A DNA stretch of 64,000 bases from Candidatus Uhrbacteria bacterium (lineage in GTDB: Bacteria; Patescibacteriota; Patescibacteriia; 2-12-FULL-60-25): assembly GCA_018499965.2 (NCBI GenBank), contig JAHBAS020000006.1:1-64000 (forward strand), in the 5' to 3' direction. Position 1 is the first letter of the stretch; each line of letters begins with the position of its first letter. Below are positions 14,764-19,747 of this stretch, one piece after another. Below the pieces are notes generated by a model, which did not search any database, had not been told where the DNA came from, and saw nothing but the letters and a program-made list of their open reading frames with translations. The position numbers were made by a program, and so were the translations under genes.

Positions 14764-15108
14764 ATGAGTCTGACCTCTATCCTGGATACTGCCCGAAAAT
14801 TGGGCATTCCCGTCGTTATTACCAATGATCGAGGAGATGCTCCTCAGGTCGTCATGCCCTTTGAAGATTTTGCCTCGATGGTTGGTGTGAACCTTCAAAA
14901 GGAACGTAAACCTCGTTTAACTTCTATCCCGAAGACGAAAGACGAGGTTGTTCAGGCACTCGAAGATCTCAAGGAAGAGGGTCGTATCCCGGATGAAGAG
15001 ATGTTCGGCGTATCTTCTGAAGAGATCGTGAACCTTCCTCCGGAAGCGGATCGATTGCTCGAAGACCACTTCTATTTTGAGCCACTTGATGACAAAGAAA
15101 GCCCATAA
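14764..15108 (+). CDS. protein of unknown function (114 aa)
   Basis: A 114-residue acidic protein. The N-terminus (LTSILDTARKLGIPVVITNDRG, then VVMPFEDFASMVG) has the look of a Phd/YefM-type antitoxin opening, but the rest is a charged, Glu-rich helical tail without a known motif. The start is the ATG at 14764; TTGTCA-17-TCTGAT places a possible promoter 8-36 bases upstream. Its stop lies within the loop region of a terminator (AAAGAAAGCCC...GGGGCTTTCTTT), so the terminator stem includes the last codons. It is the last island gene before tuf. Confidence 0.55.
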   Translation: MSLTSILDTARKLGIPVVITNDRGDAPQVVMPFEDFASMVGVNLQKERKPRLTSIPKTKDEVVQALEDLKEEGRIPDEEMFGVSSEEIVNLPPEADRLLEDHFYFEPLDDKESP

Positions 15109-15123
15109 AACGGGGCTTTCTTT
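15094..15123 (+). terminator. terminator overlapping a stop codon
   Basis: AAAGAAAGCCC-ataaaac-GGGGCTTTCTTT; the TAA of the 114-aa gene is in the loop. It separates the island from the tuf promoter. Confidence 0.8.
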
Positions 15124-15183
15124 GTAAGACAACTTATCTTTCCGTTTTTATTTTTCCGCTCTATTGAGGGCAGAATACGACCC

Positions 15184-15212
15184 TTGCGTTTCAGAATGAG
15201 TAGTGATATACT
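15184..15212 (+). promoter_or_regulatory. tuf promoter
   Basis: TTGCGT (15184-15189), 17-base spacer, TATACT (15207-15212). Predicted start about 15219. The S10-spc genes downstream may all depend on it. Confidence 0.75.
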
Positions 15213-15254
15213 CCTCCTACTTAATTGAAGCTCATATAATTCCCACGTATTCCT

Positions 15255-16445
15255 ATGGCGGAGAAATTTGAACGCAAAAAGCCGCACGTTAACGTCGGCA
15301 CTATTGGCCACGTTGACCACGGCAAGACTACTCTCACGGCTGCGATTGTGACCGTGCTTTCCCAGAAGGGTTTGGCACAGGCTCGCGGCGTGGACGCTTT
15401 TGATAAAGCGCCTGAATCCAAGGCTCGCGGTATTACGATCGCGACGGCTCACTGTGAATACGAGTCGGAGAATCGCCACTACGCGCACGTGGACTGTCCA
15501 GGACACGCGGACTACATCAAGAACATGATCACGGGTGCCGCCCAGATGGACGGTGCTATTCTCGTGGTTTCTGCAACAGATGGTCCAATGCCACAGACAG
15601 CTGAGCACATCCTTCTCGCTCGCCAGGTCGGCGTGCCAGAAATCGTTGTCTTCTTGAACAAAGTCGACATGGTTGATGATGCTGAATTGATCGACCTCGT
15701 GGAAGAAGAAATTCGCGAACTCCTCAACAAGCAGGAATTCGACGGTGCAAACGCCACCATCATCCGTGGTTCTGCATTGAAGGCGCTTCAGAATCCAAAC
15801 GACGAAGCCGCAACAAAGCCAATCTGGGATCTCATGGCCGCTCTTGATACGCGCATCCCAGAGCCAGTTCGTGATACGGATAAGCCATTCCTCATGCCAA
15901 TCGAAGACGTGTTCTCGATCGAAGGTCGTGGAACAGTGGCAACGGGCCGTATCGAACGTGGTATCGTGAAAATCAACGAAGAAGTTTCGATCGTTGGTCT
16001 CCGCGAGGAACCAATGAAGACGGTTGTGACCGGTATCGAAATGTTCAACAAGTCCCTTGACGAAGGTCGCGCTGGTGATAACGCCGGTTTGCTCCTCCGT
16101 GGTGTGAAGAAGGAAGACTTGGAGCGCGGTATGGTGCTCGCAAAGACGGGTTCCATCACCCCACACACAGAATTCGAAGCTCACGTATACGCCCTCACGA
16201 AGGAAGAAGGTGGACGCCACAAGCCATTCTTCAAGGGATACAAGCCACAGTTCTACATCCGAACAACGGATGTGACGGGTGAAGTGACGCTCGCAGCAGG
16301 AACGGAAATGGTCATGCCTGGCGACACCGCTGACATCACCGTCAAGCTCATCACTCCAGTTGCTATGGAAGAAAAGATGCGCTTTGCCATCCGCGAAGGT
16401 GGTAAGACCGTTGGTGCTGGTACCGTGACCAAAATCATCAAGTAA
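15255..16445 (+). CDS. tuf: elongation factor Tu
   Basis: A 396-residue EF-Tu, which delivers aminoacyl-tRNA to the A site. The P-loop GHVDHGKT (residues 18-25), DCPGHADY switch II, and NKVD for guanine binding are intact; domains 2 and 3 ([30 protein letters not shown]) are typical. It has a good TTGCGT-17-TATACT promoter of its own and about 36 bases of leader without an SD. Normally tuf follows fusA at once; here a small-gene island lies between. A long GC-rich hairpin follows before rpsJ. Confidence 0.98.
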
Positions 16446-16459
16446 TCATTGAGCCGTCT

Positions 16460-16510
16460 CGGGGCGGCTACCTTTCCACCGATACATTCGGTTGAAGAGT
16501 AGCCGCCCCG
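16460..16510 (+). promoter_or_regulatory. long hairpin between tuf and rpsJ
   Basis: CGGGGCGGCTAC (16460-16471) pairs perfectly with GTAGCCGCCCCG (16499-16510) around a 27-base loop. No T run follows, so it is not an intrinsic terminator; mRNA processing, stabilising the tuf 3' end, or autogenous control are possible. Confidence 0.6.
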
Positions 16511-16526
16511 GGCGGACGAAAATTCC

Positions 16527-16862
16527 ATGGCTGAAGCTAAGAAGGCGAAAAAAGAAGAAGCCCATCGCGTTCGCATCAAGATCCGCGCGTATGATCACAA
16601 GATCATCGATCAATCTACGCGTACGATCATTGATACGGCTGAACGCTCTGGTGCTCACGTGATCGGACCAGTGCCGCTCCCAACGGAAAAGAAGAAGTGG
16701 ACCGTGAACCGTTCCACCTTCGTTCACAAGGGTGCGCGCGAACAGTTCGAAATGCGTATTCACAAGCGGATCGTTGATATCCTCGATCCAAATGCGAAGA
16801 CCATCGAAGCCCTTACCAGTTTGAATCTTCCGGCAGGCGTCGACGTTGAAATCAAAATGTAG
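16527..16862 (+). CDS. rpsJ: small ribosomal subunit protein uS10
   Basis: A 111-residue S10 (NusE), a 30S head protein that also joins NusB in antitermination. The core [30 protein letters not shown] and the loop region [22 protein letters not shown] are conserved. A 13-residue Lys/Glu/Ala-rich N-terminal extension precedes the core. It begins the S10 gene order after tuf, and is followed by a 392-base structured leader before rplC, which is unusual because those genes are normally close. Confidence 0.96.
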
Positions 16863-17075
16863 CAAAAACGTTCCTCCGTGGAACGATTCCCAAGGAGTAA
16901 GTTGCTTCTCTCGTATCGTTGATATGGATGAGAGAGATAACCATCGCAAGCGAATGTGATGCTAGGGCAGAACCTCCCTGTTGCGAAACGTTGTACGGAG
17001 TACAGACAAAAAGAAAAGACGATCATGAGGTGCGGTGCAATCCGCGTTTCATGATCACGCCTTGTTCGCTCCGAG

Positions 17076-17126
17076 GCCAGAGGATCGCGTCCCGAAAGAT
17101 ATCGGGGCGCAGTCCTCTGGCTTTTT
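17076..17126 (+). terminator. attenuator terminator upstream of rplC
   Basis: GCCAGAGGA-tcGCGtCCCGA-aagata-TCGGGgCGCag-TCCTCTGGC followed by TTTTT: a long, nearly perfect stem with a U tract in the middle of the ribosomal operon. If it worked fully, the genes downstream would be silent, so it must be conditional or weak. Confidence 0.8.
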
Positions 17127-17231
17127 CCGTGCCAAATGGTTCGGATGGGAGTTCAGGGTCGAAGGAATATTGCTTCTTTGCGAGCAAAACATCCTTCATC
17201 AAAGAGGGAATTCACTCACATCAAAAGAGAC

Positions 17232-17247
17232 GTCCTCGAGAGAGGAC
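17232..17247 (+). promoter_or_regulatory. hairpin masking the rplC ribosome-binding site
   Basis: GTCCTC-gaga-GAGGAC. Its 3' arm (AGAGGA, 17241-17246) is the SD of rplC, 8 bases before the ATG at 17255; the 5' arm GTCCTC acts as an anti-SD. Confidence 0.65.
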
Positions 17248-17254
17248 CAATCCT

Positions 17255-17854
17255 ATGAAATTCATTCTTGGTCGAAAAATTGAGATGTCGCAGGTCTACC
17301 GTCCAGATGGGACGGTTGTTCCCGTGACGCTCGTCGAAGCCGGACCTTGCGTGGTTACGCAGGTGAAGACCGACGATCGTGATGGGTACTCAGCCGTTCA
17401 GCTTGGCTTCTCGCCACGCCGAACGATTTCCAAGCCTCAACAGGGGCATCTGAAAGATCTCCCAGCATTTTCGGTGTTACGCGAATTTCGCGTGAACGAA
17501 ACTCCATCCGTTAAGCGTGGAGATGCCGTTGATGCAACCGTATTTACGCCTGGTGACGCCATCCACGTAAGTGGAACGTCGAAGGGTCGTGGTTTCCAGG
17601 GCGTTGTTAAGCGCCACGGATTCCATGGACAGAAGCAAACGCACGGTCATAAAGACCAGGCGCGTGCACCAGGAAGTATCGGTGCCGGTGGTATTCAGCG
17701 CGTTTTTAAAGGGATGCGCATGGCTGGTCACATGGGTTCCGAGCGCATTACCGTTCAGAATCTCGAAGTGGTCGAAGTTCGTGATGGTGTCATTGCAATC
17801 AAGGGAGCGATTCCTGGCGCGCGAAACAGCGTGGTCGAAATCGTATCCGCGTAA
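17255..17854 (+). CDS. rplC: large ribosomal subunit protein uL3
   Basis: A 199-residue L3. The canonical opening MKFILGRKIEMSQVYRPDG and the peptidyl-transferase-facing loop (GTSKGRGFQGVVKRHGFHGQ, then TGSIGAGGIQRVFKGMRMAGHMG-like) mark it. The track ORF extends 112 codons upstream through the structured leader; that extension is not L3-like and is rejected. Its SD (AGAGGA) lies within a small hairpin. It starts the continuous run of closely packed genes up to rplO. Confidence 0.97.
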   Translation: MKFILGRKIEMSQVYRPDGTVVPVTLVEAGPCVVTQVKTDDRDGYSAVQLGFSPRRTISKPQQGHLKDLPAFSVLREFRVNETPSVKRGDAVDATVFTPGDAIHVSGTSKGRGFQGVVKRHGFHGQKQTHGHKDQARAPGSIGAGGIQRVFKGMRMAGHMGSERITVQNLEVVEVRDGVIAIKGAIPGARNSVVEIVSA

Positions 17855-17859
17855 AACAT

Positions 17860-18489
17860 ATGCCTAAGGTATCTGTATACAACGTGCAGGGTAAAGTGGC
17901 TGGCGACATGGAATTGAACGCCGCGCATTTTGGCGTGGCCGTAAAGCCAAGTCTCATCCACGAAGCCGTTATCGCACAGGAAGCAAATGCTCGCCATCCG
18001 ATCGCACACACGAAGACGCGCGGTGAAGTTCGTGGAGGTGGTAAGAAACCATGGAAGCAGAAGGGAACTGGACGTGCCCGTCACGGGTCTATTCGTTCTC
18101 CGATCTGGGTCGGTGGTGGTATCACATTCGGTCCACGAAATGTCCGAAACTTCGGCGTGAAGATCAACCGCAAGGCCAAGAAGAAAGCATTGTTCATGGC
18201 ATTGTCGGACAAACTCGCTCACAGCAAATTGTTCGTCACGGAATCATTCAGCAATAACCCGATGAAGACCAAGGCTTTTGCCTCGTTCATCGCAAGTCTT
18301 CCAGAGAAGCGAACGACGTTGTACGTCATTCCGTCTTCCCGTCCGGAATTGGTTCGTGCTGCACGAAACTTGGATCAGGTGTTCGTGGTGACGGCAAATA
18401 GTTTGAACGTTGTTGATGTGATTCGTTACGATGCCATCGTGTTCGAAAAGGACGCGATCGGTGCCTTCGAAACACTCCACGCGGCATAA
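17860..18489 (+). CDS. rplD: large ribosomal subunit protein uL4
   Basis: A 209-residue L4, which lines the exit tunnel. The extended loop TRGEVRGGGKKPWKQKGTGRARHGSIRSP is intact, the C-terminal domain (KTKAFASFIASLPEKRTTLYVIPS and the ending region) is usual. In E. coli L4 controls its own operon through the S10 leader; whether it binds the leader found here before rplC is a testable guess. It starts 5 bases after the rplC stop with no SD. Confidence 0.96.
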   Translation: MPKVSVYNVQGKVAGDMELNAAHFGVAVKPSLIHEAVIAQEANARHPIAHTKTRGEVRGGGKKPWKQKGTGRARHGSIRSPIWVGGGITFGPRNVRNFGVKINRKAKKKALFMALSDKLAHSKLFVTESFSNNPMKTKAFASFIASLPEKRTTLYVIPSSRPELVRAARNLDQVFVVTANSLNVVDVIRYDAIVFEKDAIGAFETLHAA

Positions 18490-18494
18490 TCTCT

Positions 18495-18893
18495 ATGGCA
18501 ATACTCGAACGATTAACCAAGAAGAAGGCGCCAGCCAAGAAGACGACCAAGGTTGTGAAGGAAGAGTCGTCGACAGAAGCGAAGGCGTCTGTTGCAAGTG
18601 CTCGTGCTGCGGATTTTGCAGGCGTGCTCTTGAAGCCGCATGTCAGCGAAAAGGCTGCCATGAAGGCCGATAAGGGAGTGTACATCTTTGATGTCCCTGT
18701 CAGTGTCAATAAAGTTGAAGTGCGCAAAGCGGTTGAAGCGATCTACGGCGTGAAGGTTCTTGCGGTTCGCACGCAGCGTGGAATCGGAAAAGTTGTCCGC
18801 CGCGGTCGAACGGCTGGTCGACGCAATGCCTGGAAGAAGGCGTTGGTTGAATTGAAGCCGGGTCAAACATTGTCCCTCATTGAGGGCGTCTAA
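18495..18893 (+). CDS. rplW: large ribosomal subunit protein uL23 with basic N-terminal extension
   Basis: A 132-residue L23, the docking site for SRP and trigger factor at the tunnel exit. The core (LLKPHVSEKAAMKADKGVYIFDVPVSVNKVEVRKAVEAIYGVKV and RTQRGIGKVVRRGRTAGRRNAWKKALVEL) is conserved. About 40 residues of Lys/Ala/Glu-rich sequence precede the core, making it longer than the roughly 100-residue E. coli protein. It is spaced 5 bases from rplD and 5 from rplB. Confidence 0.95.
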   Translation: MAILERLTKKKAPAKKTTKVVKEESSTEAKASVASARAADFAGVLLKPHVSEKAAMKADKGVYIFDVPVSVNKVEVRKAVEAIYGVKVLAVRTQRGIGKVVRRGRTAGRRNAWKKALVELKPGQTLSLIEGV

Positions 18894-18898
18894 GGAAT

Positions 18899-19747
18899 AT
18901 GCCGATTAAGATTTATCGTCCTACAACAAACGCGCGACGGAATTCATCCGTTCAGGATTTTTCTGATATCACGCGCACGACGCCAGAGAAGTCTCTCATC
19001 GTCGCAAAGCATCAGAAGGCCGGACGAAACAGCTATGGCCGCATCACGGTTCGTCATCGTGGCGCAGGAAATAAGCGTTATATCCGCCAGGTGGACTTCC
19101 GTCGTGAGAAGTACGACATTCCGGCAAAGATCGATTCCATCGAATACGATCCAAACCGAGGCGCTCGTCTCGCTCTCCTCGTCTACGCGGATGGAGAGAA
19201 GCGATACATCATCGCCCCACAGGGAGTAAAGGTTGGCGATGTGGTGCTTTCCACCAAAACGCAGAAGATCGAAGTGGTTCCGGGTAACCGCGTTCCGCTC
19301 GAACATTTGCCTGTTGGTATTTTCGTCCATTCCGTAGAGCTTCAGCCTGGAAAGGGTGGACAGATCGGACATGGCGCTGGTGCTAGTATTCAGATCATGG
19401 CCATTGAAGGACAGTACGCCACGTTGAAGCTCCCATCCGGTGAGGTTCGTATGGTGCCGAAGTCCTGCTCTGCAACGGTTGGTGCCGTGTCGAACCCAGA
19501 TTGGCGCTTGATTCGTTGGGGAAAAGCTGGTCGAACTCGCCACCGCAATATCCGTCCTACGGTTCGCGGTAAGGTGATGAACCCGGTTGATCACCCGCAT
19601 GGCGGAGGTGAAGGTCGAAACCCGATCGGTTTGAAACGACCGAAGACCCCATGGGGTCGCCCTGCTCTTGGTGTGAAGACGCGAAAGCGCAAGCATCAAA
19701 CGAACACGTTGATTATTCAGCGTCGCAAGAACAAGAATAAGCGCTAA
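18899..19747 (+). CDS. rplB: large ribosomal subunit protein uL2
   Basis: A 282-residue L2 of normal length, needed for subunit association and peptidyl transfer. The opening [41 protein letters not shown] and the highly conserved C-terminal [13 protein letters not shown] (with the functional His) are present. AAGGA precedes the ATG closely. It lies in the standard S10 order between rplW and rpsS. Confidence 0.98.

Follow-up and report, generated by a model that had tools for sequence, protein, structure and literature searches.

The locus raises a simple question: why are the genes for ribosomal proteins S10 (rpsJ) and L3 (rplC) separated by a long non-coding gap in Candidatus Uhrbacteria bacterium, and does this gap carry a regulatory RNA? 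In the following, the window denotes the whole stretch of DNA that was analysed (64,000 nt, contig JAHBAS020000006.1). Patescibacteria are mostly uncultured and, to our knowledge, very little is known of the regulation of their translation machinery. From comparison of related sequences we consider it probable that the gap encodes a ribosomal-protein leader which attenuates transcription of the rplC operon. This reading is preferred because the gap holds a fixed internal loop, lies before a ribosomal-protein operon and has a terminator intervening between loop and operon.

The gap, its flanking genes and the terminator

The gap and its borders comprise the following features.

16527-16862, plus strand: rpsJ (S10), the upstream gene; an open reading frame with S10 matches in relatives
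17076-17121, plus strand: intrinsic terminator hairpin, recognized from sequence and fold; a terminator hairpin is present in 39/39 tabulated family leaders
17122-17126, plus strand: T-run of the terminator, TTTTT, recognized from sequence
17255-17854, plus strand: rplC (L3), the first downstream gene, assigned by its translation; at most 74% identity to rplC of relatives

The initial annotation had described a hairpin-rich gap of 392 nt with a long intrinsic terminator and five terminal T residues, and each of these points was confirmed. With rpsJ ending at 16862 and rplC starting at 17255, exactly 392 nt remain between the genes. The fold of the gap has an energy of -161 kcal/mol compared with -115.5 +/- 6.0 kcal/mol for dinucleotide shuffles (z = -7.6), and none of 100 such shuffles folded as well. 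The stretch of hairpin B (see below) and the terminator reaches z = -6.0 against shuffles on its own. The terminator hairpin is built from long, GC-rich arms, GCCAGAGGATCGCGTCCCGA-loop-TCGGGGCGCAGTCCTCTGGC, directly followed by TTTTT at the positions given above.

It had also been assumed that rpsJ and rplC are normally close to each other. This holds for most loci outside the lineage, where many gaps in other phyla measure 0-70 nt and some in Chloroflexi about 100-345 nt, but not within it. Here a long gap is the rule: family members have 152-623 nt between the two genes, and a class sample of 82 further genomes has 135-756 nt throughout (median 255 nt).

A search of positions 15000-19000 of the window detected no sigma-70-like promoter. 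Six other loci (L200, L201, L205, L017, L019 and L232) contain sequences resembling a sigma-70 promoter, TTGACA and TAnAAT separated by about 17 nt, within the gap and upstream of the leader; the window has none of these. In L101, L107, L118 and L119 the terminator loops have received long repeat-rich insertions while both arms were retained. Another hairpin is located between tuf and rpsJ (16461-16509). It is perfect over 11 bp, GC-rich (GGGGCGGCTAC/GTAGCCGCCCC) and not followed by a T-run, and is possibly a processing site or an insulator.

The conserved core and its distribution

Upstream of the terminator the gap contains a structured core, whose elements are listed here for the window.

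16874-16885, plus strand: 5' strand of P0 (CTCCGTGGAACG), the helix flanking the core; pairs with 16989-17000
16891-16897, plus strand: 5' strand of P1 (CAAGGAG), near-invariant; pairs with 16974-16980
16898-16902, plus strand: strand 1 of the internal loop (UAAGU); AAGU is invariant in alignment A1
16903-16907, plus strand: 5' strand of P1b; pairs with 16965-16969 and covaries
16908-16936, plus strand: hairpin P2, variable in length and sequence; 5/5 modelled pairs changed on both sides
16942-16961, plus strand: hairpin P3 with the loop AGCGAA (16949-16954); 4/4 modelled pairs changed on both sides
16965-16969, plus strand: 3' strand of P1b (GGGCA)
16970-16973, plus strand: strand 2 of the internal loop (GAAC); UAAC in nearly all relatives
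16974-16980, plus strand: 3' strand of P1 (CTCCCTG)
16989-17000, plus strand: 3' strand of P0 (CGTTGTACGGAG), assigned by the P0 permutation test

Every family genome in which rplC was matched, 40 in total, entered the comparison. The near-invariant core sequence CCAAGGAG[T/A]AAGTTG ... CATAACCTCCCTG is present in the gaps of 39 of them. The remaining genome (L120, G018) has N letters over the end of rpsJ, but the core is still detected by the covariance model. Throughout the family the plan is the same: P1 is followed by an internal loop of 5x4 nt, WAAGU/UAAC, then by P1b and finally by either one hairpin or the P2/P3 junction. Unconstrained energy minimisation yields an identical fold for 39/39 distinct family leaders. 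P1 usually contains one A.C mismatch, which is replaced by A-U, U-A or G-C in some relatives.

A conserved pairing among relatives is what a ribosomal-protein leader, as originally suggested for this gap, would be expected to show, and the rpsJ-rplC gaps collected from related genomes reveal covariation of P0, P1b, P2 and P3. In the 24-sequence alignment A1, 89.6% of the cells are paired compared with 74.9% for column shuffles and at most 49% if the strands are slid against each other; double changes occur in 13 of the 19 pairs. In compact cores one position of P1b varies between G-C, C-G and U-A. For P0, which encloses P1, the pairing score over 39 leaders is 16.8 for the strands of the same leader and 13.4 +/- 0.45 for permuted strands (0/5000), although this and the other permutation figures overstate significance because the genomes are related and not independent. 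Together with the covarying pairing, the presence of a terminator in the leaders examined, the site behind rpsJ and the lack of an Rfam match strengthen the original suggestion. The conserved core, consisting of P0, P1, the WAAGU/UAAC loop and P1b, is the likely site of protein binding.

Beyond the family, two covariance models were applied to the class. The family model R1 matched 36/36 family genomes of the class sample, once each and at the rpsJ-rplC gap. The other 345 genomes of the class yielded just three matches, all at chance level (E 0.04-0.09). Model R2 was built from 17 class loci and zero family sequences. It nevertheless recognizes the core in family loci (14 at E<0.1), and out of 381 genomes of the class 66 have exactly one match each. 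All 31 class matches for which the locus was fetched are situated between rpsJ and rplC. The placement of the leader after rpsJ and before rplC, unlike in E. coli, is borne out by the family loci and by these matches alike. Twelve of the R2-matched loci that had no part in model building are 100% paired and show seven doubly changed pairs. The pairing result for A3 is biased, since a script had selected its members for pairing; the R2 matches in family and class and the loci outside the model are less biased, although A4 is itself fitted to the model. The single R2 match elsewhere in the phylum, in G569 (L241), is coding-like with neither rpsJ nor rplC nearby and was discarded as false.

A related core, G-[A]AAG[A/C]-U ... 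A-[A/U]AAC-C, was recognized in about a third of the 82 class gaps, and class-wide strand 1 of the internal loop reads W-AAG-H. A simple scan, run without a shuffled control, detected a terminator-like hairpin in 51 of the 82 gaps.

The position of the core also bears on the level of control. Many ribosomal-protein leaders act on translation, and this one might do the same with rplC, its terminator-like hairpin being of secondary importance. In addition to this precedent, no obvious Shine-Dalgarno sequence precedes rplC in the window. The end of the core, however, is about 270 nt away from the rplC start, a conserved pairing to this start was not seen, and throughout the family the hairpin with its T-run is interposed between core and gene. 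We regard control of rplC translation rather than transcription as very unlikely. Immediately 5' of the rplC start (17245-17254) the sequence GACCAATCC is found, which recurs at the corresponding position in many loci of the family.

Hairpin B and the loop-loop contact

Between core and terminator a further hairpin is located.

17059-17077, plus strand: hairpin B (GCCUUGUUCGCUCCGAGGC) with the loop UUCGCU (17065-17070), flush with the terminator and sharing 2 nt with it

The B loop can pair with the P3 loop, which lies about 115 nt upstream; the two complementary sequences read AGCGAA/UUCGCU (P3/B) in the window. This contact, the most informative feature of the gap, is absent from the initial annotation. 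Several distinct double changes are visible in these loops among the related genomes, for instance AACGAA/UUCGUU in L084, CGCGAU/AUCGCG in L085, GUGCGA/UCGCAC in L095 and GGAUCGAUC/GAUCGAUCC in L107. A free search of the whole region was too noisy and was replaced by a test in a fixed register, set by hand for a few leaders. Here 110 of the 112 central P3-B pairs are formed (four per leader, 28 distinct leaders). The three flanking positions are paired in 52 of 84 cases compared with 32.3 +/- 3.7 if loops are permuted among genomes (0/10000, again among related genomes). L113, where the motif is lost on both sides, was not counted.

In a clade whose reduced core has no P3, the UCGC hairpin B is mostly missing as well (L082, L094, L097, L108 and L111). 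L105 is an exception with B present and P3 absent. Consequently, the kissing contact is not essential in all leaders. Where it occurs, it likely couples the core to the terminator.

How this coupling might operate is constrained by the geometry of the terminator. B and terminator overlap by about 2 nt here. In L110 and L117 B abuts the terminator with no overlap, and therefore a simple competition between the two hairpins is not the general mechanism. Inspection of folds and arms by eye revealed no conserved antiterminator and no conserved longer alternative pairing.

A constitutive partial terminator combined with an element for RNA processing or stability should also be taken into account. 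It would keep the tuf-rpsJ transcript at a fixed ratio to the downstream transcript and would sense nothing. The terminator in 39/39 family leaders, the missing antiterminator and the gap of the window without sigma-70-like promoter all agree with this explanation. A fixed terminator, however, has no need of an invariant asymmetric internal loop, of a covarying junction or of a covarying loop-loop contact bridging about 115 nt, and we consider it unlikely on these grounds.

For the regulated leader that we favour, the following sequence of events is the most likely. The leader would set the share of transcription from rpsJ that proceeds into rplC and the subsequent genes. If a ribosomal protein of the operon is present in excess over rRNA, it would bind to the core. 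The P3-B contact would then form or be stabilised and cause more termination before rplC, i.e. feedback repression. We infer protein binding, feedback repression and a contact that favours rather than prevents termination; the opposite sign is conceivable. The covarying contact between core and B offers a testable idea of the way in which a protein-sensing RNA may set termination without a classical antiterminator. A leader shared by numerous families of the class, and with no counterpart in Rfam, would demonstrate that this group controls its largest ribosomal-protein operon by feedback, at a point within the operon that would differ from E. coli.

Possible ligands and relation to known leaders

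As a rule of the field, the preferred candidate is an operon protein whose role as ligand is already known (PMC7247131). Because of this rule and the precedents from the E. coli S10 leader and from Archaeoglobi described below, L4 is our first choice as ligand, although we would stop short of calling it probable. L3, the product of the first gene rplC, is a somewhat weaker candidate, and another protein of the operon is rather unlikely. Should L3 prove to be the ligand, it would be a new protein among the known autogenous regulators; uL3 is not listed as a bacterial autogenous regulator in the reviews that we found. Extending the proposal to the class, a patescibacterial leader may sense uL3 and use a long-range kissing loop, in place of a classical antiterminator, to signal to the terminator, with the internal loop strand-swapped in other lineages. 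We put this forward as a speculation that we would not expect to hold in full.

A specific affinity for L3 would result if the core mimicked helices 100/101 of 23S rRNA. The islands GUAAG, RGCGAY and GCYAA are indeed found in the same order at the 3' end of the organism's own 23S rRNA, and P3 loops contain AGCGAU as in helix 101. The GCGA island, however, is accounted for by the pairing with hairpin B and is missing from the class-wide core. We rejected the mimicry of helices 100/101, which is highly improbable with AGCGAU explained by the B pairing and with covariance models that have no rRNA match: neither R1 nor R2 matched the own 23S locus, and R2 did not match the E. coli rRNA genes. A scan for the WAAGH/WAAC loop found no core-like site in E. 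coli 16S and 23S rRNA or in the own 23S rRNA; for 16S only the E. coli sequence was scanned, since the genome's own 16S gene was not found in the assembly. The best match in 23S rRNA (1008/1132) was dismissed, its score being no better than that of one of 20 shuffles. The strands of this match belong to other helices.

The gap was also compared with known RNA families and published leaders. Rfam 15 at gathering score gives no match to the gap of the window and none to the gaps of 20 related loci. At permissive thresholds only chance matches to microRNAs appear in the gap of the window. No description of the present leader was found in the open-access papers searched, and it appears to be undescribed so far.

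The leader of the E. coli S10 operon exerts L4-controlled attenuation and translation repression, and conservation of its site is restricted to some of the gammaproteobacteria (PMC10931766). It resembles the present leader in controlling the same gene block (rplC, rplD, rplW, rplB ...) and in having an intrinsic terminator within a long structured leader (PMC10931766). In a comparison by description only, the E. coli leader precedes rpsJ, whereas the present one follows it. For the L4 leader of Archaeoglobi the ligand was chosen on the basis of precedent (Eckert and Weinberg 2020, PMC7247131); this leader is likewise predicted and located directly before rplC-rplD-rplW-rplB. As far as the descriptions can be compared, it differs in being archaeal and in being rated borderline by its authors (PMC7247131). 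The rpsJ motif (RLC-47-1) of Peptostreptococcaceae is a candidate leader for the corresponding part of the operon; judged by description only, it is distinguished by its position before rpsJ and by its phylum (PMC11109978). In the B. subtilis rplJL leader a ribosomal protein complex, L10(L12)4, sets termination upstream of its own genes, while genes and ligand are different, judged by description (PMC4538822). The general kind of leader is well known, and the position after rpsJ and the long-range loop-loop coupling appear to be new. These two properties make it more than just another leader.

Further motifs were noticed in the gaps of other class members. In L186, L193, L199 and L172 an AAC/AAGU internal loop is present with its strands swapped, resembling a circular permutation, and the same arrangement was seen by eye in L175, L176, L188, L207 and L228. 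In a second register the strand-swapped loop was detected by a strict scan in 4/82 gaps compared with 0.45% of shuffles; with the first base unpaired, a strict scan of the class gaps gave nothing above shuffles. A second motif, roughly GGTAGATnGGTTCTGGRGATGA ... ATCCYCAGATAACRATTTGCC, occupies the same slot between rpsJ and rplC in L158, L163, L181, L194, L195, L203, L211, L215, L216, L221, L223, L227 and L231, and is probably another leader for the same operon. A third motif, AATGATCC ... GGATATC-nACTGRAG, is found in this slot in L159, L167, L179, L230 and L234.
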